The notes: generated by a model from the sequence alone, not told the origin. Counted from the first letter of the stretch, positions 34,013-49,879 are shown. The stretch: DNA of 64,000 bases from a candidate division WOR-1 bacterium RIFOXYB2_FULL_46_45 (GCA_001771585.1 MEUE01000003.1:310001-374000); one strand, 5' to 3'. Translations and numbers: made by a program.

Positions 34013-35124
34013 AGTTTAAAATAGCTCCGTATCGCTTTAATAATCCTTGGTGAGGCTTTTCCGTCGCCGTAGGGATTTACCGCTCTCGCCATTTTAACAT
34101 ACGCCACCTTATTGTCTAAAAGCTTTTTGGTCTCGCGGATAATAACCTCTTTTTTATCTCCGACCAGTTTCACCGTCCCCGCCAAGACCGCCTCCGGCCG
34201 CTCGGTCGTCCGCCTCAAAACCAAAACCGGCTTCCCCAACCCCGGCGCCTCTTCCTGCACCCCGCCGGAATCGGTTAAAATTAAATACGCCTGCTTCATC
34301 AGATGGACAAAGGGATGATAATCGAGCGGTTCGGTCAATTTTACATTCTTAATTTTTCCCAGTATCTTATTTGCCGTATGGAGGACGTTCGGATTGCGGT
34401 GGACCGGCAGGATAATTTTAATTTTGTCGCCGTATTCTTTCGCGATCGTCTTGATTGCCGCGCAGATCTCTTTGAGCGGCGCCCCAAACGATTCTCTGCG
34501 GTGGACGGTCACCAAAATCATTTTTTGAAGGCGACGATTCGAATCGTCGCCTTCGTTGTCGAACGGTTTTTCCCGCAACGCCAAATGGAGCGCGTCAATA
34601 ACGGTGTTCCCGGTGACATGAATTGTTTTCGGATCGATATTCTCTTTGATCAGATTTTTGGCCGAAGTTTTGGTCGGAGCGAAATGGAGATCGGCGACGG
34701 AAGAGAGAAGACGGCGGTTCACCTCTTCCGGAAAAGGATTGTATTTGTTGCCGGTCCTAAGCCCCGCCTCAACATGTCCCACCGCGATCTTGTGGAGGAA
34801 GGCGGCCAATCCGGCGGCAAAAGCGGTGGAGGTGTCCCCCTGGACCAAAACCATCTCCGGTTTTTCTTTGATAAAAATCTTTTCAAGCCCGCGAATGGAA
34901 TTGGCAATGATATCGGAGATGCTCTGGTTCTTGCGCATGATGCCAAGATCGTAAGCGGGCCTGATCTTAAAAAGTTTTAAGATCTGCTTGAGCATTTCAC
35001 GATGCTGGCCGGTGGAAACGACAATCGTTTTAAATTCGTGAGGATACTTTTTTAATTCCAGGACGACCGGAGCCATCTTCACCGCTTCCGGCCTGGTCCC
35101 AAAGACCACCATTATCTTTTTCAT
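34009..35124 (-). CDS. wecB: UDP-N-acetylglucosamine 2-epimerase (non-hydrolysing)
   Basis: Interconverts UDP-GlcNAc and UDP-ManNAc for surface polysaccharides. The 371-residue protein has VFGTRPEAVKMAPVV, STGQHREML, VQGDTSTAFA, VEAGLRTGNKYNPFPEE, HRRESFG and SGGVQEEAPGLGKPVLVLR. A palindrome (34527-34554) adds NEGDDSNRRLQ in the loop before MILVTVHRRE. ATGA overlap with the WecA/TagO-like gene, so both act in one glycan pathway, likely with the sugar dehydrogenase at 51.9 kb (UDP-ManNAc to ManNAcA). Confidence 0.96.
   Translation of the reverse strand: MKKIMVVFGTRPEAVKMAPVVLELKKYPHEFKTIVVSTGQHREMLKQILKLFKIRPAYDLGIMRKNQSISDIIANSIRGLEKIFIKEKPEMVLVQGDTSTAFAAGLAAFLHKIAVGHVEAGLRTGNKYNPFPEEVNRRLLSSVADLHFAPTKTSAKNLIKENIDPKTIHVTGNTVIDALHLALREKPFDNEGDDSNRRLQKMILVTVHRRESFGAPLKEICAAIKTIAKEYGDKIKIILPVHRNPNVLHTANKILGKIKNVKLTEPLDYHPFVHLMKQAYLILTDSGGVQEEAPGLGKPVLVLRRTTERPEAVLAGTVKLVGDKKEVIIRETKKLLDNKVAYVKMARAVNPYGDGKASPRIIKAIRSYFKL
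34527..34554. repeat. 28-bp perfect palindrome inside wecB
   Basis: Arms GAAGGCGACGATTC and GAATCGTCGCCTTC meet without a spacer. It encodes EGDDSNRRL in frame in a variable loop of WecB. The same design, with two bases changed per arm and the same reading frame, is found in gatB at 61632-61659. Confidence 0.9.
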
Positions 35125-36077
35125 TTAAATAGTACCATCACCAGGGCGGAGAGCCCCAGCAAGAAACAAACTATATAGATAGAGAGGACCGCTTCGCGCT
35201 GGGTAAAGCCGGCGCGCAGAAGCATATGGTGGATATGCTTGTTGTCCGCCTTAAAAACCGGCTGGCCTTCCTTCATCCTTCTCCCGATCGCGAAGAGGGT
35301 ATCGAAAATTGGGACCCCCAGGATAAGGAGCGGAATAATCAAAGCGACGACTAAAGTCGTTTTAAAGACCCCTATAATAGAAGAGGTCGCCAGGACAAAG
35401 CCGAGGAGCAGGCTCCCCGAATCCCCCAGGAAAATTTTCGCCGGAAAGAAATTATAACGTAAAAACCCGAGCGCCGCTCCGGCCAGGCAGAGCATCGTCA
35501 GCGCCGCCCCGATCTGGTGGGTCCTCAAAGCGACAAAAAATAAAATTGAGGCCGATATGGCGGTCACTCCGGCCGCCAGCCCATCCAAGCCGTCGATTAA
35601 ATTTATCGCGTTGGTAACGCCGACAATCCAAAGGAGTGTTAACGGAAAGCTGATGATCATTGGAATTGCCATCAGGCCGTTAAAGGGGTTGGTCATAAAG
35701 GAGACCGAAACGCCAAAGCCGTAGGCAACGGTGGCGGCGACAATCTGCCAGAAAAATTTGGTACTTGGCTTGAGGGATTTCATATCGTCTTTGATCCCGA
35801 GGAGGACGATAATGATGCTTCCAAGCGTTATTCCAAAAATTGGGAGGAGGTTTAGTTTTGAGCCGGAGAAGAAGGCGATGATCAAGCCGAGGATTAAGGC
35901 GGAAAAGAAGCCAAAAAAGATCGCGATGCCGCCCAGGCGGGGGATCGTATCGGTATGTATTTTTCTCTGGTTGGGGGTATCGACTGCCCCTATTTTGAAG
36001 GCCAGCTTTATTGCCGCCGGCGTTGCCAAAATAGTCAATAAAAAGGCCGTCAGAAAAGAAATTGGGAATAAGAGCAT
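35121..36077 (-). CDS. WecA/TagO-like polyprenyl-phosphate sugar-1-phosphate transferase
   Basis: The 318-residue, roughly ten-helix protein belongs to the WecA/TagO/MraY superfamily that starts lipid-linked glycans by moving a sugar phosphate to undecaprenyl phosphate. Motifs: DTPNQRKIHT, GIKDDMKSLKPSTKF, AINLIDGLDGLAAG, FLGDSGSLLLGF and the WecA/TagO-type loop KHIHHMLLRAGF. The last motif and the wecB neighbour favour GlcNAc-1-P over MraY activity. TATAAT on the minus strand (36094-36089) is 11 bases before ATG 36077. First gene of the wecA-wecB-murA-ybeY run. Confidence 0.93.
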   Translation of the reverse strand: MLLFPISFLTAFLLTILATPAAIKLAFKIGAVDTPNQRKIHTDTIPRLGGIAIFFGFFSALILGLIIAFFSGSKLNLLPIFGITLGSIIIVLLGIKDDMKSLKPSTKFFWQIVAATVAYGFGVSVSFMTNPFNGLMAIPMIISFPLTLLWIVGVTNAINLIDGLDGLAAGVTAISASILFFVALRTHQIGAALTMLCLAGAALGFLRYNFFPAKIFLGDSGSLLLGFVLATSSIIGVFKTTLVVALIIPLLILGVPIFDTLFAIGRRMKEGQPVFKADNKHIHHMLLRAGFTQREAVLSIYIVCFLLGLSALVMVLFK

Positions 36078-36141
36078 TACGGGTATATATTATAGCATTT
36101 TCCACGGCAAATTACAACCCGCCCCTCCCCTCTTTGCCGGC

Positions 36142-36193
36142 TTGAGGTTTTAACAATTAAAACCTATAATTGTATTAGGAAACACCATGGTGT
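36142..36193 (+). promoter_or_regulatory. Promoter with two palindromic operator candidates, signalling cluster
   Basis: TTGAGG (36142-36147), a 17-nt spacer and TATAAT (36165-36170). An inverted repeat AGGTTTTA-ACAAT-TAAAACCT (36145-36165) fills the spacer almost exactly, and a perfect 12-bp palindrome ACACCATGGTGT (36182-36193) lies just after the expected transcript start. Two operators on one promoter suggest tight control of the genes that follow. No regulator of the DNA-binding type is encoded next to it. Confidence 0.65.
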
Positions 36194-36214
36194 GCCTTTA
36201 GATCCTTTTAATTC

Positions 36215-37294
36215 ATGAATATTTATGCGGCCTTAAACTTATTATGCGGCTTATTCTCTATCAGTATAGGGATATTTGTATTTTTAAGAAATAGACATTC
36301 GGCAGTCAACCTTTCTTTTTTTGTTTTGTCCTTTATGGTCTTCATCTGGCAGTCCGGAACCTATTTTATGTTAACAGCTCCTAATCCCGGCACGGCTTTC
36401 TTTTGGGGCAAAATTATTTATTTGGGAACCACATTCTTGCCGGCCGCGGTATATTATTTTGTCGTATCTTTTTTAAAAAAGGGTCGGGAGAAAAAACAGG
36501 GGTATCTTGCGTTTATTCTGGCGGGTGTGCTTTTTTTGCCCCTGCTCGGAACCAACCTTTTACTTTCCGGTGTGCGTAAATATTTTTGGGGTTATTGGTA
36601 TCAAGCCGGCTTACTGCACCCCTTCTATCTATTATATTATCTGATTATCTTGGGATTGAGTCTCGTTTATTTATATAAGGCCTACACAAAAGAAAAATCC
36701 CCTCTCGAAAAAATTCGCATTAAATATGTTTTAGGGGCATTTATAATTTCTTTCGTCGGCGCGATCGATTTTATTCCGGATTATGGGATTGAAGTATATC
36801 TGCCAAGCCATCTTCCGATCTTTATTTACTTCAGTGCAATCGCTTATGCCATTACCAAACACCAATTAATGGACATAAAAATAATTATTAATCGCCTTAT
36901 GGCATATTCGATCATCCTCATTGTCTACGTAATTGCCGGATTAATCGTGACATTTACAAGTTACTATTTATTTTTAAGCCATTTAAACCATCTTGCTTTT
37001 TTATCTCTTACCGCGTTCCTTATATTGGCCGGACTCTCCTTCCATCCCCTCCGCCTCCATCTCCAGACCACCCCGGACAAGTTTTTGTTCAGAAAAAAGT
37101 ATTTGCTCGAACAGGCGGCAAAGGAGATCGGCAAGATCTGCCATTCAACGGTTGACCAGGATATCCTGTTTAATCTGGTCAATAAAAACCTGAAAACAAC
37201 TCTCAACACCAAAAGCATCCCCTTTTTCCTCCTTAACAAGGGTAAAAACGGCTTTGCGCCCGTAAAAGGGGCAAATCCGGGCAGGGCAAAATAA
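36215..37294 (+). CDS. Histidine-kinase-type 7TM receptor lacking a kinase domain
   Basis: The 359-residue protein is built like the N-terminal half of the kinase at 40257: seven or eight membrane helices (about 1-285) of the HisKA_7TM kind, including the diagnostic AIAYAITKHQLMDIKIIINR. A linker PDKFLFRKKYLLEQAAKEIG then leads into the first part of a GAF-like domain, which stops after about 40 residues at a TAA. No HisKA or ATPase domain follows in any frame before the next gene. It may be a kinase-less receptor, a co-receptor or decoy for the full kinase, or a truncation. No ribosome-binding site is evident. Confidence 0.75.
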   Translation: MNIYAALNLLCGLFSISIGIFVFLRNRHSAVNLSFFVLSFMVFIWQSGTYFMLTAPNPGTAFFWGKIIYLGTTFLPAAVYYFVVSFLKKGREKKQGYLAFILAGVLFLPLLGTNLLLSGVRKYFWGYWYQAGLLHPFYLLYYLIILGLSLVYLYKAYTKEKSPLEKIRIKYVLGAFIISFVGAIDFIPDYGIEVYLPSHLPIFIYFSAIAYAITKHQLMDIKIIINRLMAYSIILIVYVIAGLIVTFTSYYLFLSHLNHLAFLSLTAFLILAGLSFHPLRLHLQTTPDKFLFRKKYLLEQAAKEIGKICHSTVDQDILFNLVNKNLKTTLNTKSIPFFLLNKGKNGFAPVKGANPGRAK

Positions 37295-37295
37295 C

Positions 37296-37325
37296 TTGAA
37301 ATTTTAGCAAAATCCGTTCGATAAT
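37296..37325 (+). promoter_or_regulatory. Possible internal promoter before the 951-residue enzyme gene
   Basis: TTGAAA (37296-37301), an 18-nt spacer and GATAAT (37320-37325) lie between the 7TM gene stop and the next start. AAAGGAG follows 20 nt later as a normal ribosome-binding site, so this gene has a leader, unlike many in the window. Confidence 0.45.
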
Positions 37326-37362
37326 TAAACAGGATCAATCGTAGCAAAAGGAGCTCCAACTC

Positions 37363-40218
37363 ATGCTAGGAAGCGTTTCCGGAATAGAAAGAACAGGTCC
37401 GTTTAGGTCCAGATCGTCCGTACGCACGGATCTTTGCGGCTTAGGAATAAAAGCGGGCCTTTTCAGGCAGATGGGAGCAAAATACGCGCTTCGGAGATAC
37501 TCCGAAGAAAATTATCAAGAGGTTCTCGGTCTTATCAAACGCGCCCATCAACTTGAACTTCCAATTACAAAGATTGAAGTACGGCGGCCGGGAGCGGTCA
37601 GAGAGGGTGATTTTTCAGATATTTCCGATTCAGCTATCCGCACCCGAGCGATAGAAGGCACGCTAAAAATAGCGTCATTGGCAAAAAGCGACTCCTCACC
37701 ACAAACAAATCAGGTAGGCAACCTTGCCGACGCTCTTCAAACAGCACAAGAAGAGTTAAAATCACTGGCAGAAAACCCATCATCCACTCTTGACGAAGTT
37801 TTTCCTGTTTTAAAGGATATTATTAATTTTATTCAAATAAGGAACATCTCTGTTTATGTTCCGGTTACAAAAGACACCTGGGCCAGGCTTTTTTGCTCTT
37901 GCCCATGGCCGCAAGACGGGATTACAAAATATGCCCCTCCGGACGGACAAGTGCCCACAACTACACTGGCAAGCATAATAAGCGCGCCGGGAGATTTTTT
38001 TCGGGTAGACATCGGGGTTAAGCCGGAAGAAAGCCCCGAAGAAGCACATGTAAGGATTGAAAATGAATTTAAAGCACAGGGAATAGTTCCCGACTGGACC
38101 TCTATTGACAACGATCGGGAAAGGTCCCATGGGGACGGAAGGCTTTTGTTTTTTAAGATTAGATCTGTTAGCGGGAGCAGGACTTTGGGCGTGTTTCAAG
38201 CCCACAACCTTGTTGCGGACGGAGAAACGGCTTTCCCTTTATTTGAAAATCCGCAGGATGAAGGAAGAATAATCGCCATACTACGGGCAATTTTTGACAA
38301 AGCCGCGGTAACTATTGATAAGATTAGAGAGAGAAGCGCTCAAGAAAAGACAAAAGCAACTGCCGCAAATATTCCCGCAACGGAAATTAAATCTTCGTCC
38401 ATCCCTGCAACCGTGCAGGAAGCCAGCTTGTTTCCCGTATTCAAAGGCACCCAAAACCGTTTTTTAATGACTGTTTTAGTTTTCTTAAATAGAATAAGAG
38501 GCCTTTTTATTGAAACAATTTTGCAACGGTTAGTTAACATTGTTAATCCACCAAAAAATTGCAAGCTGGTTGAATTTTACAATACAAAAAACGGCAAAAA
38601 GAAAAGGATTAAGGCATATATAGACTATCCGGAGAATGTTTCTGATCGAAGTAAGTCCCCATGGGTTATTATCCCACCCGCTTTTGGAAAAACAAAGGAA
38701 ACAACTTTCCTGCTGGCTTTATACTTAAAAAGAAACGGTATTGGAGTATTACGCTATGACGACACTTCCGCAATCGGAGAAAGCGAAGGTGATATTTACG
38801 ATTTGACTCTTTCGGAATCAACTTCAAACATAAGTGCAGCTATTGATTATCTAGCAACAACCGAAGGCGCTTCAAACATAGGGCTTGTTCCCTTCAGTTT
38901 ATCGGCCCGGCCAGCCGTAAAAGCCACAGCCAATGATTCCCGCATCAAGTTTTTAATCCCCATCGTAGGATCCCCAAATATTCAAACTCTTTTGGAAAGG
39001 GTTTATGGGGAAGATCTTATTGCTGATTATAAAAAAGGCGAACGCAAAGGAGCACTTAATTTGCTCGGACATCCGGTAAACTCCGATACTTTCCTTGGGG
39101 ATGCCGTCAATGCCGGCTTTGGCGATCGAACATCAACCGAAGCAGACTTGCAAAAAATAGGTGTTCCTATTGTATGGTTTTGCGGAACGGAGGATCCTTG
39201 GGTAGAACCGCAAGAGGTGGCAAAAGTATTGGGAGAAAGCCCAAAACGGAAGGTCGTCCGTTATAAAGGAATTTCTCATCGCGTAAGAGAAGCGGGACTG
39301 GCTCCCGCCTTGTTCGCAGAAACAGTTAAAACAATTCTTTCTTTAGTGGAAAGAAAAACGATATCAGACACAGACATTGTCCATCCTCATACCCAGGAAA
39401 TTGTAGCTAAAAGCGTTAGGGAGCGCCAACGCCTATCCAGAAAAAAACTTTCCAAAGATGAGGAAGTCGGACTTTGGAGAAACTATCTGGAAGGATTTGA
39501 TATATTATTGGAAACAAGGGATTACATGGAATATCTTGAGGATTTAAGCGACTTTATTGGTTTAAATCCTGGAGAAAAAATGCTGGATGCCGGATGCGGA
39601 ACAGGAAATCTTTTAATCTATATTATGTCTCGTTTGGCTCTCCAAAAAAAATATGACTCCAATTGGGCAAACAGTTCTTTTGTGGGAGTTGACTTCGTAC
39701 AAGAAGCACTACAAAATACCGAAAAAAAAATAGAAACAGTAAGGAAAAAAAGAAAAAATTTACCCACAACAACCGTACAAAGGGTTGATCTTAATAATGG
39801 TCCCCTGCCCTTTGGAGAAGAAGGTTTTGATAAAATAGTTTCCAGTTTGCTTTTGTCTTATGTAAAGGATCCAAAAGCAGTCGTTAGAAAACTATGCGGT
39901 TCTCTTAAGCCCGGCGGAAAAATTATTTTAACAAGCCTAAAACCGGATGCCGATATTTCACAAATCTATCATCGTTTTATGCAAAAAATTAAAACCACCC
40001 ATTCCAAGGATCCTCACCAACAGGAATTATTGGAGAGGGGCAGAGGATTAATAAATGCCGCCGCAGGATGGATTGAGGTGGAAGAAGAAAAAGGAACCTT
40101 TAAGTATTTTTCGGAAGACGAATTAGTCTCTTTTTTAGAAGCAGAAGGAATAAAAATCACCAAAAGAGTTCTTTCCTTCGGAAAGCAAGCGATTGTGGTT
40201 GTCGGAACAAAGCAATAG
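37363..40218 (+). CDS. GAF-like / LuxD-like acyltransferase / SAM methyltransferase fusion
   Basis: A 951-residue, apparently cytoplasmic fusion. Residues ~130-335 look GAF-like (FPLFENPQDEGRIIAILRAIFDKAA near its end). Residues ~400-675 resemble LuxD, the myristoyl-ACP thioesterase of luminous bacteria. They share an IPPAFGKTKETT start, GVLRYDDTSAIGESEGDI, IGLVPFSLSARPA with Ser512 at the nucleophile position, TEDPWV with Asp611 and ISHRV with His639, in the order of the LuxD triad. Residues ~715-951 form a class I methyltransferase (MLDAGCGTGNLL at 740; LLLSYVKDP; LKPGGKIILTSL). No LuxC/E/A/B genes are present. I infer release of a fatty acid from acyl-ACP followed by methylation, possibly producing a signal read by the flanking 7TM proteins. 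Domain matches are from memory of motifs; function is untested. AAAGGAG precedes the ATG. Confidence 0.75.
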   Translation: MLGSVSGIERTGPFRSRSSVRTDLCGLGIKAGLFRQMGAKYALRRYSEENYQEVLGLIKRAHQLELPITKIEVRRPGAVREGDFSDISDSAIRTRAIEGTLKIASLAKSDSSPQTNQVGNLADALQTAQEELKSLAENPSSTLDEVFPVLKDIINFIQIRNISVYVPVTKDTWARLFCSCPWPQDGITKYAPPDGQVPTTTLASIISAPGDFFRVDIGVKPEESPEEAHVRIENEFKAQGIVPDWTSIDNDRERSHGDGRLLFFKIRSVSGSRTLGVFQAHNLVADGETAFPLFENPQDEGRIIAILRAIFDKAAVTIDKIRERSAQEKTKATAANIPATEIKSSSIPATVQEASLFPVFKGTQNRFLMTVLVFLNRIRGLFIETILQRLVNIVNPPKNCKLVEFYNTKNGKKKRIKAYIDYPENVSDRSKSPWVIIPPAFGKTKETTFLLALYLKRNGIGVLRYDDTSAIGESEGDIYDLTLSESTSNISAAIDYLATTEGASNIGLVPFSLSARPAVKATANDSRIKFLIPIVGSPNIQTLLERVYGEDLIADYKKGERKGALNLLGHPVNSDTFLGDAVNAGFGDRTSTEADLQKIGVPIVWFCGTEDPWVEPQEVAKVLGESPKRKVVRYKGISHRVREAGLAPALFAETVKTILSLVERKTISDTDIVHPHTQEIVAKSVRERQRLSRKKLSKDEEVGLWRNYLEGFDILLETRDYMEYLEDLSDFIGLNPGEKMLDAGCGTGNLLIYIMSRLALQKKYDSNWANSSFVGVDFVQEALQNTEKKIETVRKKRKNLPTTTVQRVDLNNGPLPFGEEGFDKIVSSLLLSYVKDPKAVVRKLCGSLKPGGKIILTSLKPDADISQIYHRFMQKIKTTHSKDPHQQELLERGRGLINAAAGWIEVEEEKGTFKYFSEDELVSFLEAEGIKITKRVLSFGKQAIVVVGTKQ

Positions 40219-40256
40219 ATTGACCTATAATCCCTATGATGAGATAATTAATCCTA

Positions 40257-42293
40257 ATGAATTTTTTTGCCTTCAGCGCACTTATCAACGGAATAACCAG
40301 CGCTCTGCTGGGAATTTATGTCCTGGCAAACAGCTATAAAAACCCCCTAAACCGTAGTTATTCCGTTTTTGCTCTTAGTGTCTTCATTTGGAGCTTTGGA
40401 TATTTTTTCTGGCAAAACTCTTCCTCTGCCGAAAACGCTCTGCTTTGGTCGCGTATATTGATGGCCGGAGCAATCATGATTCCTTTATCCTATTTTGATT
40501 TTTCATTACACTTGACCGGCACCGTACTCCAAAACCGCCTCCAAAGCATTATCTCCTGTATCATCGGCATGTTTTTCCTTCTTGCAGATTTAACTCCGCT
40601 TATCGTAAGCGGCATATCAAAAAAAATGTATTTTGATTTTTGGCCGACCCCGGGACTTTTATACCCGTTTTTCCTGCTTATGTTCTTTTTTTATACCTTT
40701 TATTCACTTAGCATAATGTTGACAAAATTCAAAAAAAGTTTTGGCCAGGTCAGGCCGCAAATCATGTATGTTTTTTGGGGAACCGCCATAGGTTTTGCCG
40801 GCGGATCAACTAATTTCTTATTGTGGTACGATATTCCAATTCCTCCCTTAGCTAATATTTTAGTGTTGGCCTACCCTGTTTTTATGGCGATCTCGATCAC
40901 AAAACATCGGCTGATGGACCTTTCGGTAATTATCAGCCGTACGGCCGCCGAAATTCTGGCAATTTTATTTCAGGGAATCATTTATTTGAGTATGGTCTGG
41001 CTCTACCAAAATTATGTATCAAATCAAATTGACTCGCTCTTTATCACACTAACCGTAATCTACGGCATCTGGGTTGGACAAACCCATCAAGTGCTCCGCC
41101 TAAAAATACAAACAACAACCGACAAAGCAATCTTGCGGGGAAAATATGATTATTACAAAGAACTTTCTCTGGCATCCATTAAAGTAGGAGAAGATCTTTC
41201 TCTTTCAAGCATTTTGAAAGTCCTCTATGCTACTTTCTATGAAACTGTACAGATAAACAACCCCCGCATTTTTCTTCCCAATAATTTTACAACACCAATG
41301 GATTCAAAAAAATATGTGGTTTACAGCCGCGAAAACTTCACCCCTATAAAAGATGGCGAAGAAATTAGCATGGAAGAAAAACTAATCGAAGAACTAACAA
41401 AAAAGAGAGGACATTTACTAAACGAAAAAGACCATGACCGCAATCTTATTGTCCCCTGCCTGCTTGAAAACCGTTTAATCGCCATGTTTATCCTGGGGCC
41501 AAAACTCTCCCAGGATCCTTATACCGATGAAGATATCCAACTGCTAGAGGTTTTGGCCAGCCAGGTGGCCATTGCGCTTGATCACACTCGTTCCTACGAA
41601 AAAATAAAAGATGACCTCGAAGCTACCCAGATGCAGCTTGAACGCTCCCAGCGCCTGGCGTCACTGGGAACCCTAACCGCCGGGGTGACGCACGAAATCA
41701 GAAATCCCCTAACCGTCATCCGGCTGGAAACGCTGAAACTGCCGTCAAAGCCAAGGGACGTGGATGACTTGAAACAACGCAGTGATTTGATCGTAAAATA
41801 CGTCGACCGGATTGAATTGATTGTTGAAAAGATGCTCCACCTATCCCGCTTCAAAGCTCCCGTTAAAACCAAAGTCGACTTAAACTCGGTGGTTGAAGAA
41901 ACCTTCCCGTTCTTTTCAACTTCCAGCGCAAAAATCACCAAAGAACTCCAGCCGGTTCCAAAAATCGACGGCGATCCGGAAGAATTGGAGAGGGTCCTAA
42001 TCAACCTGATCCAAAACGCCGAATACGCCAAAGCTAAAAAAATTACGATAAAGACCTTTGTCGAAAAAAACAAGATCCATCTTGAAGTCTCGGACAACGG
42101 GAAAGGGATCCCCAAGGAAAACATTTCAAAGATATTTGATCCCTTCTTCAGCTCCCGGCATGAAGGGACCGGATTGGGACTGTCGATCGCCTATCGCATC
42201 ATCCGCGAACACGGGGGGACAATCACGGTCGACAGCGAGGAAGACAAAGGTACAACTTTTAAGATTGAGTTTGAGGCGGCTGCGGGGAAATAA
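40257..42293 (+). CDS. 7TM-GAF sensor histidine kinase
   Basis: The 678-residue kinase has a 7TM sensor domain (about 1-235) ending in ITKHRLMDLSVIISR, a GAF domain (about 290-440; PCLLENRLIAMFILGPK, DEDIQLLEVLASQVAIALDHTRSY), and a HisKA domain with His479 in GVTHEIRNPLTVI. The ATPase has NLIQNAEYA, DNGKGIP and GTGLGLSIAYRI. The same sensor type occurs without a kinase two genes upstream. Between them lies the acyltransferase-methyltransferase fusion, an arrangement that recalls synthase-receptor pairs of quorum sensing. A TATAAT at 40226-40231 may give it its own promoter; no ribosome-binding site is evident. Probable partner: the response regulator at 43.0-43.6 kb. Confidence 0.9.
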   Translation: MNFFAFSALINGITSALLGIYVLANSYKNPLNRSYSVFALSVFIWSFGYFFWQNSSSAENALLWSRILMAGAIMIPLSYFDFSLHLTGTVLQNRLQSIISCIIGMFFLLADLTPLIVSGISKKMYFDFWPTPGLLYPFFLLMFFFYTFYSLSIMLTKFKKSFGQVRPQIMYVFWGTAIGFAGGSTNFLLWYDIPIPPLANILVLAYPVFMAISITKHRLMDLSVIISRTAAEILAILFQGIIYLSMVWLYQNYVSNQIDSLFITLTVIYGIWVGQTHQVLRLKIQTTTDKAILRGKYDYYKELSLASIKVGEDLSLSSILKVLYATFYETVQINNPRIFLPNNFTTPMDSKKYVVYSRENFTPIKDGEEISMEEKLIEELTKKRGHLLNEKDHDRNLIVPCLLENRLIAMFILGPKLSQDPYTDEDIQLLEVLASQVAIALDHTRSYEKIKDDLEATQMQLERSQRLASLGTLTAGVTHEIRNPLTVIRLETLKLPSKPRDVDDLKQRSDLIVKYVDRIELIVEKMLHLSRFKAPVKTKVDLNSVVEETFPFFSTSSAKITKELQPVPKIDGDPEELERVLINLIQNAEYAKAKKITIKTFVEKNKIHLEVSDNGKGIPKENISKIFDPFFSSRHEGTGLGLSIAYRIIREHGGTITVDSEEDKGTTFKIEFEAAAGK

Positions 42294-42305
42294 ATCCCAA
42301 ATCCA

Positions 42306-42327
42306 AAATCCCAAATCCCAATGAATC
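42306..42327 (+). repeat. Left 22-bp inverted repeat of the four-helix-bundle cassette
   Basis: AAATCCCAAATCCC then AATGAATC. Its reverse complement, with one mismatch (21/22), occurs at 42935-42956. A partial extra AAATCCCAAATCC copy lies directly before it from 42292, touching the kinase stop codon. Confidence 0.8.
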
Positions 42328-42450
42328 TTTTAATCTTCAAATCATTAAATTAAAATAAAAAAAGAAGCAAATTCGCGGTTCCAAGTTCAGCCAACGATCC
42401 TTATCCTTCGATCTGACGATCTGATTTGTCGCAGTAGAACTGGAGAAAGT

Positions 42451-42564
42451 TCCTCCGACCCCGATTTTATCGGGACAAAAAGATTTGGTCTAATCACGTC
42501 TTAAAAGGGCAATTTTGCGAATAAATCTTTTTGTGTTCCGACATAAAGTCGGAACGTCGGAGGA
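42451..42564. repeat. Nested multi-hairpin element
   Basis: Four exact inverted repeats are nested: TCCTCCGAC (42451-42459) with 42556-42564; CCCGAT (42460-42465) with ATCGGG (42469-42474); ACAAAAAGATTT (42475-42486) with 42523-42534; and GTTCCGAC (42535-42542) with GTCGGAAC (42548-42555). The RNA of either strand would fold into a branched structure closed by the outer stem. It lies in the gap between the kinase and the four-helix-bundle gene (42294-42570), which holds no other gene. Confidence 0.75.
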
Positions 42565-42570
42565 TTTTTT

Positions 42571-42969
42571 CTATTGGATTTTTACCTTATTGATTATTGC
42601 GCTCAAAATTAGAACTAATTCATTGGCCTCCCCAATTAACGTGACCAATTCCGGGCATTCCAGTCGATTAACCTGCTGTATCAATCTGAGCCAGTATTTT
42701 GATTCTCTGGCTTCCCTGCGGGCAATCGCCATTTTATTAATAAAATCCTTTTTTGTTAAAGTTCCATCCGCTTCTTCCAAATTTGCCCCAATTGATCCGC
42801 TGGATCTTATTAGTTGTTTTCCATATTCCAATGTGGCTTGATTTTTTATTGTTTTGTTTGTAAAAATTCCAACTCGAACCGCAAAATCCAATCCTCTTTC
42901 CTTAATGTCATATTTTTTTGATTTGGATTTTGTTGATTCATTTGGATTTGGGATTTGGTCATTTGTCAT
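42571..42969 (-). CDS. Four-helix-bundle protein (S23/23S-IVS type)
   Basis: The 132-residue protein fits the four-helix-bundle family first seen in intervening sequences of 23S rRNA genes. Segments: KKYDIKERGLDFAVRVGIF, YGKQLIRSSGSIGANLEEADG, TKKDFINKMAIARREARESKYWLRLI. Its first ~16 residues (TNDQIPNPNEST...) are encoded by the right inverted repeat, so the repeat supplies the start codon context. Here it is not in an rRNA gene. Function unknown; members are thought to bind nucleic acid or ribosomes. Flanking repeats suggest a mobile cassette. Confidence 0.88.
   Translation of the reverse strand: MTNDQIPNPNESTKSKSKKYDIKERGLDFAVRVGIFTNKTIKNQATLEYGKQLIRSSGSIGANLEEADGTLTKKDFINKMAIARREARESKYWLRLIQQVNRLECPELVTLIGEANELVLILSAIINKVKIQ
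42935..42956 (-). repeat. Right 22-bp inverted repeat of the four-helix-bundle cassette
   Basis: Reverse complement reads AAATCCCAAATCCA then AATGAATC, matching the left copy at 21 of 22 positions. The two bound a 651-bp segment. The repeat lies inside the 5' end of the coding region. Confidence 0.8.
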
Positions 42970-43022
42970 TATACAGTATCTGTTAGCAATTTTGCCGCCT
43001 GCTGACTATCCTCTTCCTATTC

Positions 43023-43625
43023 TTATGCCTTTGTAGGCGGCGGCTGCTTAGCGGATTTTTTCTTTTGCTTTCGTTCTTCTTCTTCCCGTTCGCGTTCTTT
43101 TTCTTCCTCGTCCATCTTCTTCCTGACCCGCTCCCTGATCTTTTCGGGATCAAACTCGCGCTTGACGCGCAGGGCAAATTCCTTGGCGTTGGTCCTAAGG
43201 TTGGTCATGTCCATCATATGTTCTTCATTGCCGGCAAAAAAATCTTCAAGATGGTTTAAAAGGGTCGAAGGATTAAACGGCTTGGTAATGTAGCCGACCA
43301 CCATCCCCTGCCGGGCTTTCTCCCATTTTTCCTCGTCTTCCCAGGCGCTCAAAATGATAACGCCGATCCGCTCCATATACTCTTTCCGAATCTTTTCCAA
43401 AAATTCCAGCCCGTCCATCTCCGGCATTTTTATGTCAAGGATGATACAGCGGACCCGGTTGGGGATCAGCCCCATGACCCGCTTGTTGCTTTTGAGCATC
43501 TTTAACGCCTCCGGGGCGGAATAACAGGTGATCACATCGTACTTGCCGGTGTCCTTAAGCAATTCGGTGATCGAATCGGCAATATCTTTTTCGTCGTCCA
43601 CCACCATTATCAACGGTTTCATCAT
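43023..43625 (-). CDS. Response regulator with charged C-terminal tail
   Basis: The 200-residue protein has one receiver domain (1-130): acidic pair Asp10-Asp11, phospho-acceptor Asp64 in CIILDIKMPEMDG, Ser93 in ILSAWEDE and Lys115 in YITKPF. There is no DNA-binding or enzymatic output domain. Instead residues ~150-200 form a helical tail of Glu/Arg/Lys repeats (EEKEREREEEERKQ) likely to make a coiled coil or protein contact. It converges with the 7TM-GAF kinase across the four-helix-bundle cassette and is the nearest candidate partner; pairing is inference. Confidence 0.88.
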   Translation of the reverse strand: MMKPLIMVVDDEKDIADSITELLKDTGKYDVITCYSAPEALKMLKSNKRVMGLIPNRVRCIILDIKMPEMDGLEFLEKIRKEYMERIGVIILSAWEDEEKWEKARQGMVVGYITKPFNPSTLLNHLEDFFAGNEEHMMDMTNLRTNAKEFALRVKREFDPEKIRERVRKKMDEEEKEREREEEERKQKKKSAKQPPPTKA

Positions 43626-43640
43626 GTGCTTTTTTTCTCC

Positions 43641-44342
43641 CTAGTTTACGTCAAAGACCGAATCTGGAATATTCTCGTTGATCTTGATATTGTCGTAAAC
43701 CATGTCAATTTTCATCTCTCCGTTGGGCATTGAGACCATAGAAAAACTCCTGGAAGCGACCAAAATCCCCTTAATCTCCTTGTATTCGATCCTGGTATCG
43801 CTGATCTTTTTGTTGTTGGCGCCAAAGACCCTGATCTCTTCCGGCACCAGTTTCGAGCTGTTCACAAAAACTTCCATCTTTCCCATCAGCTTGTTGTTCC
43901 CTTTTGGAAAACCGATGATAAGGAATCCCCTCGAAACGTCTTTTACCGAGAAATTAAATTTTTCCTTCGCCTTTTCAAAATCCATCTGTCCCGATTCCTG
44001 TTTCTGTCCCTCCGGGGTCTTGCTCAAATCCTGCACGTATTTTTGCCCGGTATCGGGCATGATCATCGCGACTTTGGTCCCGTTGGTGATCGAGATCTGT
44101 TTTTGCGGAGAGGTGATCTCCATTTTGCTCTTGTCTTTCCCCTTGGTCCAGATATGCCCCTTTTGCGTCATCTCCTTCATTCCCTTGGCGTTTGAAACCA
44201 TTTTGGTTGTGACATCGGCCTGCATGTCTTTTATTTTTCCCTGGTTATCCTTCAATTTGGCAAAAAGTTCGTCTATAGTCACCGCCTGTGAAATCGTGGC
44301 GGCAAAAAGGACAATAATCGCGGCTATTATCAGTTTTTTCAT
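43641..44342 (-). CDS. LolA-like outer-membrane lipoprotein-sorting protein
   Basis: The 233-residue protein has a signal peptide (residues 1-19, ending ISQA-VT) and a LolA/LppX-like body: IDELFAKLKDNQGKIKDMQADVTTKMVSN, GHIWTKGKDKSKMEIT, FVNSSKLVPEEIRVF and a final DSVFDVN. Such proteins carry lipids or lipoproteins through the periplasm. ATG 44342 is used because GGAGGG precedes it and the signal peptide starts there. It is 15 bases upstream of the response regulator on the same strand and may be co-transcribed. Confidence 0.75.
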   Translation of the reverse strand: MKKLIIAAIIVLFAATISQAVTIDELFAKLKDNQGKIKDMQADVTTKMVSNAKGMKEMTQKGHIWTKGKDKSKMEITSPQKQISITNGTKVAMIMPDTGQKYVQDLSKTPEGQKQESGQMDFEKAKEKFNFSVKDVSRGFLIIGFPKGNNKLMGKMEVFVNSSKLVPEEIRVFGANNKKISDTRIEYKEIKGILVASRSFSMVSMPNGEMKIDMVYDNIKINENIPDSVFDVN

Positions 44343-44392
44343 TGTTATGATCCCTCCATGTTTGAATTTTACCACCTGCCGCTAGAAATGAC

Positions 44393-44487
44393 AACTCACC
44401 CTAAATCCCTCTCTTAAAAAGAGAGGGACTTTCCTTTTTGTCTCATCTCCCCCTCTATTGAAAAGAGAGGGGGATGGGGGGTGAGTT
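44393..44487. repeat. Intergenic palindromic repeat, two hairpins in an outer stem
   Basis: Outer arms AACTCACC (44393-44400) and GGTGAGTT (44480-44487) enclose two hairpins: TCCCTCTCTT with AAGAGAGGGA (44406-44428), and CCCCCTCT with AGAGGGGG (44449-44473). It lies between two divergent genes. C-rich/G-rich repeats of this look are scattered in many environmental genomes; here it may serve as a bidirectional structural element. Confidence 0.8.
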
Positions 44488-44495
44488 AAAAGTCC

Positions 44496-44524
44496 TTGCA
44501 CTCATCTTACAATTACGCTAACAT
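44496..44524 (+). promoter_or_regulatory. Promoter of the small membrane protein gene
   Basis: TTGCAC (44496-44501), a 17-nt spacer and TAACAT (44519-44524), followed by AAGGAGG before ATG 44545. Confidence 0.45.
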
Positions 44525-44544
44525 AAATGAAAAGGAGGATTCAC

Positions 44545-44880
44545 ATGAAATTCGATATCGACGAGAAGCATTTTAACGTATTTAATCTGTTGCTGCTTCT
44601 ATTGGCCTGGGCCAACACCTGCTACATCCTGGTGATCTTTACGAAAAATTTTGTCCCGCTTCTTTTGACTACCATCCTGGTCTTAACCGGAACCGCCTTG
44701 ACCCTGGCGATGGTTGTCATCACGATCATCACTACCGTCCGCTGGGTGAAACATCACAACTGGGGCTGGTGGCTTTTGATCGCCCTGGTCGTTTTGTGCG
44801 TTCTCTCTTGGAGTTTGGAATCGACCATGCGGGGACTGCTCATCCGCGAGCAGGTGTATAATTACCAGCAGGGGAGTTAA
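44545..44880 (+). CDS. Small membrane protein, unknown
   Basis: The 111-residue protein has three hydrophobic helices (about residues 12-32, 38-62 and 74-92). A His/Trp-rich loop between the second and third (RWVKHHNWGWW) could face the membrane surface. The C-terminal 20 residues are polar (YNYQQGS). ATG 44545 has AGGAGG at ideal spacing; the upstream ATG at 44527 lacks it. No family recognised. Confidence 0.6.
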   Translation: MKFDIDEKHFNVFNLLLLLLAWANTCYILVIFTKNFVPLLLTTILVLTGTALTLAMVVITIITTVRWVKHHNWGWWLLIALVVLCVLSWSLESTMRGLLIREQVYNYQQGS

Positions 44881-45121
44881 GAAATAAGGGGAATAGTCCC
44901 GAATTTTTATCACGAATCGTTCTCTCAAATAAATTCAAATCCCCTGGTCTCAAATCTGTATCTCGAATGCTCAAATATTTATTCGAATTGCCCAACCCCT
45001 CCCATTTTGGAGGAAGTGGGGAGGAGAAATTCGGGAGACGTATTCGAAGATTCGGGACGTCTATTCGAGTTGGAGGATTAGAGTCCATTAGGGACTATTG
45101 ATTAGAGATAAAAATTCGTGA
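44881..45121. repeat. Gene-free gap with tandem and inverted repeats
   Basis: No coding frame is supported. Outer inverted arms AATAGTCCC (44892-44900) and GGGACTATT (45091-45099) bound the region. A 19-nt unit beginning ATTCGGGA and ending TATTCGA occurs at 45029-45047 and 45050-45068; the four central bases differ (GACG against CGTC). A further hairpin, CCCCTCCCATTTTGGAGG-like, lies at about 44995-45015. The motif ATTCGA recurs. It ends at the stop of the convergent tRNA-binding gene. Confidence 0.6.
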
Positions 45122-45454
45122 TTAAGAAACCCTCGACCCATTCGGAATCTCCCTGTCAACCGTTACCAAAGTTAATTTATCTTTCTCCGGTGTAGACGCG
45201 GCAAAGAGCATCCCGTGCGATTCAACTCCGCGGATTACGCGCGGTTCCAAATTGGCAATGATGACAATCTTCTTCCCGATCAAATCTTCTTTTGAATAAA
45301 ACTGCTTGATCCCGGCGATCAGTTGACGCTCTTCCCCGATATCGACTTTGAGCTTATAAATCCGGTCCGCCCCCTCCACCTCCTCCACTTCTTTGATCTC
45401 CCCTACCCGCAGATCAAGCTTTTTAAAATCGTCAAAAGTTACATTCTCCATCAT
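45122..45454 (-). CDS. MetG C-terminal-like tRNA-binding protein
   Basis: The 110-residue single OB-fold protein matches the C-terminal domain of bacterial methionyl-tRNA synthetase (also Trbp111/CsaA-like): [58 protein letters not shown]. It would bind tRNA as a dimer, possibly as a detached synthetase beta subunit. The start ATGATG (45454/45451) overlaps the hppA stop. No metG catalytic gene lies in the window. Confidence 0.9.
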
Positions 45455-47457
45455 TTAAGATGCAAGAATCCCAAAATAACCGGATGCAGTTTGACGATAA
45501 ACGCGCCAAAGACCAAAGAAACAATCGACATCAGCTTGAGTAAAATATTAATCGACGGACCGGAGGTATCTTTAAACGGATCGCCAACCGTATCGCCAAC
45601 GACCGCCGCCGCGTGTACCGGCGTCCCTTTGCCGCCTAAAAACCCGTCCTCAATCAGCTTCTTGGCATTGTCCCACGCCCCGCCGCTATTCGCCATCATA
45701 ATTGCCAACAGTACCCCGCTCCCCAGCGATCCGGCCAAAAAGCCGCCTAAGGCGGTCGGGCCAAGCAGTAGTCCCACTAATATGGGAGCTATAACCGCCA
45801 TTGCTCCGGGAACCAACATCTCTTTCAATGCCGCCCGTGTTGAAATATCGACACAACGGGCCACGTCCGGCTTTGCGGTCCCCTGCATCAAGCCGACAAT
45901 CTCTTTAAATTGCCGCCTGACTTCTTCAACCATCTGATGCGCCGCGCGTCCAACCGCCTGCATCGTTAAGGCCGTAAAAACAAAGGGCATCAGTGCTCCG
46001 ATAAAAAATCCGACCACTACCGTAACCTCCAACAAATTGATGCTTGAAAGTTTAACCGTCTGCGTATAGGCGACAAAAAGAGCCAGCGCGGTCAAAGCGG
46101 CGGAACCGATCGCGAATCCTTTCCCGATCGCCGCGGTGGTGTTTCCGAGCGAATCGAGCTTGTCGGTAATTTTTCTGGCTTCGGGTGAAAGGCCGGACAT
46201 CGTCACAATCCCGCCGGCGTTGTCGGCGATCGGACCATAAGCGTCAACCGCCATAATGATCCCGATTGTACCAAGCATCCCCACCGCCGAGATAGCAACC
46301 CCATACAATCCCGCAAATTTGTAGGAAACCAAAAGGGCGGCACAAATTGAGAGCATCGGTAAAGCGGTGCTCTTCATTCCGATCGCGATACCGCTGATAA
46401 TATTGGTGGCGGCTCCGGTCTCCGAAGCGCGCGCCAGGTTCTCAACAGTTTTTCCCGAAGTATAAAATTCGGAAAAAAGCCCGATCGCGACACCGGACAA
46501 TATGCCGGACAAAACCGCCCAAAAAACTCCGATATTTCCCGGCAAGATACCGTTGATCACAAAATAGGCGGCGGCGATAAAAAGCGCTCCCGCGACATAA
46601 GTAGCGTTCCTTAAAGCGCTGGCAGGATCAAATTCTTGTACTATATTTATAAAAATGGTTCCGATAAAAGAAGCCAACAGTCCGGCAGCGGCCAGAACCA
46701 AAGGAAGGATCATCCAGGCAAAGGTCGCCGTCGGAATCAAGACTCCGAGCGCGATCGTCGCTACGATCGATCCGACGTAAGATTCAAAAAGATCGGCCCC
46801 CATCCCGGCCACATCCCCCACGTTGTCGCCGACGTTATCGGCAATAACCGCCGGGTTGCGCGGATCGTCTTCTGGGATCCCCGCCTCAACCTTGCCGACC
46901 AGGTCGGCGCCGACATCGGCCGATTTGGTATAAATTCCGCCCCCAACCCTGGCAAAAAGAGCGACCGAAGAAGCCCCCATTGAAAAACCGGTAACCACCA
47001 GCGCCTTAGTTTTAAGATCGGGAATAAAAAACCAAATGACCGCCAAACCAATGACTCCCAAACTGGCGACCGCCATCCCCATCACCGCTCCGCCGCGGAA
47101 AGCAAACCCCAAGGCTTTCCCTTGCCGGTTATCCGCCGCGGCCGCCGCGCATCTCACATTGGCGCGAGTAGCGGCGTTCATACCGATAAAACCGGTCAGC
47201 ATCGAACAGATGCCGCCAAAAACATAGGCGGACGCGGTTGTAAGATTGACCGCGTACGCTATAGCGACAAAAACCAGCGCCATAAAGATCGCAATGCTTA
47301 AGTATTGCCGCTTTAAAAAGGTCATCGCTCCCTCATGGATCAGAGAAGAGATCTCCTCCATCTTTGGGCTCCCTCCCTTGGCACGTAATATGGAAACCAA
47401 AAGGAACAGCGAGTAAACGAATCCAAGCAAACCGATAACCAATATCAATAAATCCAT
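45451..47457 (-). CDS. hppA: Membrane-bound ion-pumping pyrophosphatase
   Basis: The 668-residue, ~16-helix protein hydrolyses pyrophosphate and pumps H+ or Na+. Substrate motifs: [42 protein letters not shown] and the C-terminal [14 protein letters not shown]. The segment [16 protein letters not shown] has Ala where K+-independent enzymes have Lys, which places it in the K+-dependent subfamily that includes Na+ pumps. It starts two bases after eno and overlaps the tRNA-binding gene, so energy from biosynthetic pyrophosphate may be conserved alongside glycolysis. Confidence 0.97.
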
Positions 47458-47459
47458 TT

Positions 47460-49879
<2,420 letters not shown>

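Follow-up and report, generated by a model that had tools for sequence, protein, structure and literature searches.

A gene in a 64,000-nucleotide stretch of DNA (the window) from the candidate division WOR-1 bacterium RIFOXYB2_FULL_46_45 (GCA_001771585.1 MEUE01000003.1:310001-374000; genome G000, 1.7 Mb, 99.5% complete) encodes a 951-residue protein that joins a LuxD-type acyl hydrolase domain to an S-adenosylmethionine (SAM) methyltransferase, a fusion referred to here as LuxD-MT. It is the middle gene of a plus-strand run of three, separated by 68 bp from an upstream seven-transmembrane (7TM) protein that has no kinase domain and by 38 bp from a downstream 7TM-GAF histidine kinase. We propose that this locus is probably a cassette of signal synthase and receptor, and that the bacterial class to which the genome belongs uses a single kinase/regulator chassis with interchangeable pairs of enzyme and sensor. 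In this model, the LuxD domain would take an acyl chain from acyl carrier protein (ACP) and free the fatty acid, and the fused methyltransferase would methylate the freed acid, a fatty-acid methyl ester being the most likely product. The 7TM domain of the downstream kinase would then sense the ester, and the kinase would phosphorylate a convergently encoded, receiver-only response regulator. Product, release and binding are all predicted from sequence comparison.

An earlier note on this DNA had described the fusion as a single protein carrying a LuxD-like domain, with Ser512, Asp611 and His639 as catalytic residues, and a SAM methyltransferase; profile searches, the residues themselves and SAM motif I all agree with that description. 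An in-frame stop lies 6 codons upstream of the start of the open reading frame (ORF). The family model PF02273 matched residues 412-689 with 102.3 bits (E 4e-29, cut-off 20.3), and the fusion is the sole PF02273 gene of its genome. The best PDB sequence match of the middle domain was 1THT, the myristoyl-ACP thioesterase LuxD of V. harveyi (E 2e-24), with which its SLSAR, DxWV and SH motifs align, and Foldseek also ranked 1THT first for an AlphaFold2 (AF2) model (E 1e-14, TMt 0.81). A search for a better-fitting family with a different triad returned none that beats LuxD, which is the nearest family in Pfam, NCBIfam, PDB sequence and PDB fold. Positions 512, 611 and 639 read S, D and H, and these columns are invariant across six fusions whose identity falls as low as 26%. 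The window protein is therefore like LuxD in fold, triad and the sequence around all three catalytic residues, and unlike it in scoring below the equivalog cut-offs (102 and 106 bits against 420 and 529), in being fused to a methyltransferase and in belonging to a genome without LuxC. Because LuxC is absent from the whole genome, a role in bioluminescence or aldehyde supply was ruled out, as the note had argued from missing lux genes. In the C-terminal part, Methyltransf_31 matched residues 735-862 and motif I reads DAGCGTGN (residues 742-749). Among the curated methyltransferase equivalogs BioC scored best (41.6 bits); the BioC, UbiE and ArsM models all stayed far under their cut-offs, leaving the domain without a specific family.

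The N-terminal module had been called GAF-like, a label that did not hold up. Pfam GAF models gave no match in 8 members, a profile comparison with the GAF domains of the kinases failed, and no Pfam model recognises the module. What suits a GAF fold is solely its AF2 topology, in the order of helices and strands, and such a fold is at most putative. The module is common to many partner enzymes of 7TM kinases, including those of AAR and GNAT type, and is present in 16 of the 31 genomes of the class.

LuxD-MT fusions were found in four of these 31 genomes (G000, G030, G018 and G004), and the remaining 43 genomes of the phylum have none. Among 383 sampled relatives, 7 carry one; when the search was extended to the classes or phyla around G221, G108 and G130, only G147, from the class of G108, was gained. 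In all 8 copies with a downstream neighbour on the contig, spanning this class and three distant lineages, a multi-transmembrane (multi-TM) signal transducer lies directly downstream on the same strand. It is a 7TM-GAF histidine kinase in the four genomes of the class, so that the predicted co-occurrence with 7TM kinases was seen in G030, G018 and G004, and it is a 7TM-GGDEF protein in G221 and a 6TM hybrid histidine kinase in G108, G147 and G130 (second copy). The fusions of G108, G147 and G221 also carry an N-terminal PilZ domain, and cyclic di-GMP (c-di-GMP) may therefore control the enzyme there. In G221 (L125 5308-10468) a PilZ-START-LuxD-MT protein is followed after 4 bp by the 7TM-GGDEF gene, a possible c-di-GMP feedback loop on signal synthesis. 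Searches of genome contigs and viral contigs returned generic methyltransferases only, and a search of plasmids gave the same kind of match plus a single lux acyl transferase, from a plasmid record of E. coli K-12.

To place the locus among its relatives, we read 64 surroundings of 7TM histidine kinase genes, which are present in 31/31 genomes of the class; all 64 had an upstream gene on the contig. A partner was defined as the next upstream gene, provided that it had the orientation of the kinase gene, lay no more than 150 bp away and did not encode a 7TM protein, and 53 of the 64 kinases had one. The gene just upstream is usually an acyl-thioester-type enzyme, differing between loci. Partners comprised methyltransferases (12), beta-ketoacyl-ACP synthase III (KASIII, 5), LuxD (4), 4HBT (3), AAR-type (3), pyridoxal phosphate (PLP) enzymes (3), KASII (2) and radical SAM proteins (2); in 53 further genes taken from these loci as background, none of these families had two members. 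The kinds of partner include, besides LuxD-MT, PigE/AAR-type acyl-thioester reductases, thioester reductase-type short-chain dehydrogenases/reductases (SDR), 4HBT thioesterases, KASIII (including a StlD/DarB relative), FabF, an alpha-oxoamine synthase (G013), class V PLP enzymes, and GNAT-fold proteins (Foldseek probability 1.00) accompanied by methyltransferases or B12-radical SAM proteins. At one locus of G024 (L031 6323-10452), a single pair of GNAT and radical SAM genes precedes two 7TM kinases in tandem.

Many of these partners methylate or act on acyl or CoA/ACP-type substrates, as would also be expected if the enzymes modified acyl chains or lipids and the 7TM kinases sensed the membrane or an internal metabolite and adjusted it, with no signal between cells. 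HMG-CoA reductase, NadE or PlsC-like neighbours at some loci, and the lack of an obvious exporter, fit such membrane-lipid homeostasis. We consider it unlikely, given that each sensor has a single partner, that the partners belong to unrelated enzyme classes and change together with the 7TM domain on a constant kinase, and that a general membrane sensor would need no new 7TM domain per enzyme. Furthermore, the partners include relatives of known signal synthases, namely the alpha-oxoamine synthase and the StlD/DarB-type KASIII.

A functional pairing of enzyme and sensor predicts that the 7TM domain tracks the enzyme and the kinase tracks the lineage, and this matches what we found. In a tree of the kinase portions the LuxD loci lie apart from one another (4 label changes for 4 rows; 500/500 shuffles as low), and the G030 kinase is sister to the G013 kinase, whose partner is the alpha-oxoamine synthase. 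In the 7TM tree, G000, G030, G018 and G020 form one group (support 100/100). All five LuxD-MT sensors, including that of G221, fall in one 11-row group (1/500 shuffles as low), which is moderately supported (81/68) and also holds sensors with NadE, DUF362 and hotdog neighbours. The AAR loci (100/100), the FabF loci (100/99) and four of the KASIII loci (100/97) have groups of their own. The shift in identity is abrupt and coincides with the point where the 7TM domain ends, near residue 225. Compared block by block, the G030 and G013 kinases are 24/25/39% identical in the 7TM domain and then 63-84%, and those of G014 and G011, from the same genus, 16/20/25% and then 71-96%. In this second pair, L107 (G014, KASIII partner) and L095 (G011, FabF partner), the kinases are 88% identical overall and the 7TM domains 19% identical; this difference is, on these identities, a recent sensor swap between two species of one genus. 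The window kinase resembles the G030 kinase over its whole length. Against the paralogue in its own genome it is 15-33% identical before residue 450 (28-32% per 75-residue block in the 7TM domain), then 59, 40 and 63% in three blocks. Over all labelled pairs, 7TM identity in same-enzyme pairs exceeded the expectation from kinase identity by 10.8 points (permutation null 0 +/- 0.75; 0/5000 permutations reach it), a result that is optimistic, as kinship among rows inflates the permutation tests; the single swap cases stand independently. Together, synthase and sensor domain co-vary on a conserved kinase core, the pattern known from pherotypes.

The enzyme gene lies immediately before the kinase gene, next to the 5' part that encodes the 7TM domain, so a single crossover in conserved kinase DNA would move both, and linkage helps their co-transfer. 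Recombination of this kind could carry the upstream content along with no functional coupling between enzyme and 7TM domain. As the whole explanation this seems improbable to us, for three reasons. LuxD-MT is paired with unrelated TM families in distant lineages (7TM histidine kinase, 7TM-GGDEF and 6TM hybrid histidine kinase). The SDR/hotdog pair of G015 and G020 retains its 7TM domain (58% identical) on kinases that are 33% identical. GNAT1-type 7TM domains occur on both System A and System B kinases (L032 against L065: 7TM 48%, kinase 37%). Function is favoured over linkage by the boundary that recurs where the 7TM domain ends, by the swaps between chassis types and by the unrelated receptors elsewhere.

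The proposal of a methyl-ester signal draws on the Phc system of Ralstonia, in which PhcB makes methyl 3-hydroxy fatty acids that are sensed by PhcS (PMC8578825). In G020, a 7TM domain of the LuxD-MT type (61-77% identical in blocks to that of G030) stands beside a 345-aa class I methyltransferase instead of LuxD-MT. This methyltransferase, for which no PDB relative was found, is 30% identical (E 1e-40) to a 468-aa methyltransferase of Paraburkholderia graminis, whose operon continues with a 445-aa kinase and two regulators. We call the operon Phc-like by its gene order and sizes, not by Ralstonia sequences: the order equals that of phcBSRQ (PMC8578825), and published coordinates make phcB at most about 472 codons (PMC6989110). 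The operon lies on a conjugative plasmid (L126 6443-10818, NZ_CP024936.1). The TM domain of its kinase is homologous to the 6TM domains of the G108, G147 and G130 kinases beside LuxD-MT (HHalign probability 96.7, z 10-13). LuxD-MT and a PhcB-like methyltransferase are each found with both receptor types, as expected if both make the same kind of ligand, which supports a fatty-acid methyl ester as the most likely product of the fusion. The likeness to PhcB/PhcS that the note had drawn is strengthened by these relationships.

The window system is like PhcB-PhcS-PhcR-PhcQ, which serves quorum sensing by methyl 3-hydroxymyristate/palmitate, in that a SAM methyltransferase adjoins a multi-TM kinase and the regulators have no DNA-binding domain (PMC8578825). 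It is unlike Phc in that its methyltransferase belongs to another subfamily and is fused to its own acyl hydrolase; BLASTP with the PhcB-like methyltransferase of L076 gave 23% identity at E 0.02, no real similarity to this stand-in for Ralstonia PhcB. Moreover, the window sensor is a 7TM protein (PF16927) unrelated to the 6TM type, and its comparison with the Phc-like TM domain (z = -0.2) gives no sign of homology to PhcS-type kinases. The methyltransferase matches no specific family and could act on another target group; some other acyl-derived compound, such as a methylated keto or branched acyl product, might be the one sensed by the 7TM kinase. This we regard as possible but on the doubtful side, since the partners are exchanged with PhcB-like methyltransferases and PhcS-like sensors.

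Besides the open choice of methylation target, the chance of co-transfer by linkage, the inflated permutation test, the mixed 7TM group and the indirect basis of the Phc-like label, several further points count against a signalling cassette. No exporter is evident, the regulator has no output domain, and the labels of the GNAT-variant partners rest on models built in this analysis. Some 7TM kinases of G018, G020, G014 and G011 have no enzyme upstream. At L101 (G014), L103 (G011), L092 (G018) and L094 (G020), System B 7TM kinases stand straight behind glmU with no synthase. The orphan of G018 (L092) has a GNAT1-type 7TM domain, 60% identical to that of G019, and may therefore listen to the signals of other species.

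Domain searches confirmed that the fusion is flanked by a kinase-less 7TM protein and a 7TM-GAF histidine kinase. The window kinase belongs to the HisKA_7TM sensor kinases (PF16927), with a 7TM N-terminus (54 bits), HisKA (38.5) and HATPase (96.8), and its 7TM domain is 65% identical to that of the LuxD-MT locus in G030 and 59% to that in G018. The nearby convergent regulator proved to be receiver-only: it lacks an output domain and has a charged tail. A related receiver-only gene is also convergent in G030, G018, G026, G019 and G014, and the regulator is a conserved companion of such kinases. The kinase-less protein had been taken for a second receptor of the fusion's ligand, which the 7TM tree does not support: the protein is not in the group to which every LuxD-MT sensor belongs, and clusters with sensors of SDR-partner loci and a kinase-less 7TM protein of the same genome. 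It may be a decoy or accessory receptor for another class of ligand. At least three kinase-less 7TM proteins are present in G000, one in the window and two on contig C4 (L088 5704-7897). With this receptor assignment set aside, and with the LuxD family, the co-occurrence with 7TM kinases and the link to Phc upheld, the core inference of the note has strong comparative support.

The principle of a synthase encoded beside its receptor is known from comQXPA, CqsA/CqsS and PhcB/PhcS; what would be new is the exchange of whole lipid-type enzyme families together with a 7TM receptor domain. In the comQXPA pherotypes of Bacillus, the gene that makes the signal varies along with the kinase's membrane part, and the cytoplasmic kinase is conserved (PMC4008528). 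The loci described here are alike in varying signal gene and membrane sensor on a conserved kinase. They differ in that a modified peptide varies in sequence there and entire enzyme families are exchanged here, and in that the variation lies between strains there and across species here. The alpha-hydroxyketone systems CqsA/CqsS and LqsA/LqsS also place an acyl-derived signal synthase beside a multi-TM kinase, and the G013 chassis has an alpha-oxoamine synthase; unlike CqsA/LqsA, this enzyme is closer by score to BioF and serine palmitoyltransferase than to the CqsA/LqsA model, on which it reaches 189 bits (cut-off 428). If enzyme-sensor pairs are interchangeable as in pherotype switching, the ligand would differ from locus to locus. 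For the wider proposal, evidence on the two sides seems to us evenly poised: modular chemical communication, in which enzymology is exchanged with the 7TM receptor domain so that related species use chemically unrelated lipid-type signals, and the LuxD-MT pair is one case, which in distant lineages is joined to other outputs, among them c-di-GMP synthesis. The pattern suggests a communication system with interchangeable chemical 'languages', and, if so, pherotype switching would extend from peptide variants to the exchange of entire biosynthetic chemistries. In the literature searched, the PF16927 domain came up only in two reviews of two-component domain architecture, and the ligands of these kinases are apparently undescribed; searches for a LuxD-methyltransferase signalling system or for 7TM kinases with synthases returned nothing relevant. 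If each kinase adjoins the gene for its ligand's enzyme, the partner would predict the ligand class, every pair would become a testable hypothesis, and the family could be a source of orthogonal small-molecule sensors.

Features of the LuxD-MT locus, in positions of the window
Feature	Position	Strand	Evidence or remark
Kinase-less 7TM protein, HisKA_7TM domain, 359 aa	36215..37294	+	PF16927 61 bits, no kinase domain; first gene, putative operon
LuxD-MT fusion, 951 aa: N-terminal module, LuxD-type acyl hydrolase, SAM methyltransferase	37363..40218	+	proposed signal synthase
N-terminal module of fusion, residues 1-345	37363..38397	+	alignment, class survey, AF2 topology
LuxD-type (PF02273) domain, residues 412-689	38596..39429	+	profile, triad, PDB match
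Triad codons Ser512, Asp611, His639	38896-38898, 39193-39195, 39277-39279	+	
Class I SAM methyltransferase domain, residues 715-951	39505..40215	+	Methyltransf_31 57.5 bits
7TM-GAF-HisKA-HATPase sensor histidine kinase, 678 aa	40257..42293	+	phosphoacceptor His479 in HEIRNP
7TM sensor domain of kinase, residues 1-225	40257..40931	+	LuxD-MT type, predicted to be swappable
Four-helix ORF, IVP family (23S rRNA intervening-sequence family)	42571..42969	-	between kinase and regulator
Receiver-only response regulator, 200 aa, convergent	43023..43625	-	PF00072 86 bits

In the relatives read, no counterpart of the four-helix ORF was seen between kinase and regulator. Rfam elements were absent from positions 35000-45500 of the window, and promoter and terminator scans gave sites somewhat above shuffles, results that were not used. 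Elsewhere in the window, an ORF of 367 aa (48776-49879) is without any Pfam match. A 677-aa protein with no recognised fold is encoded at G000:C1:762788-764821 (L108 7789-9822), upstream of the double-7TM kinase of that genome.

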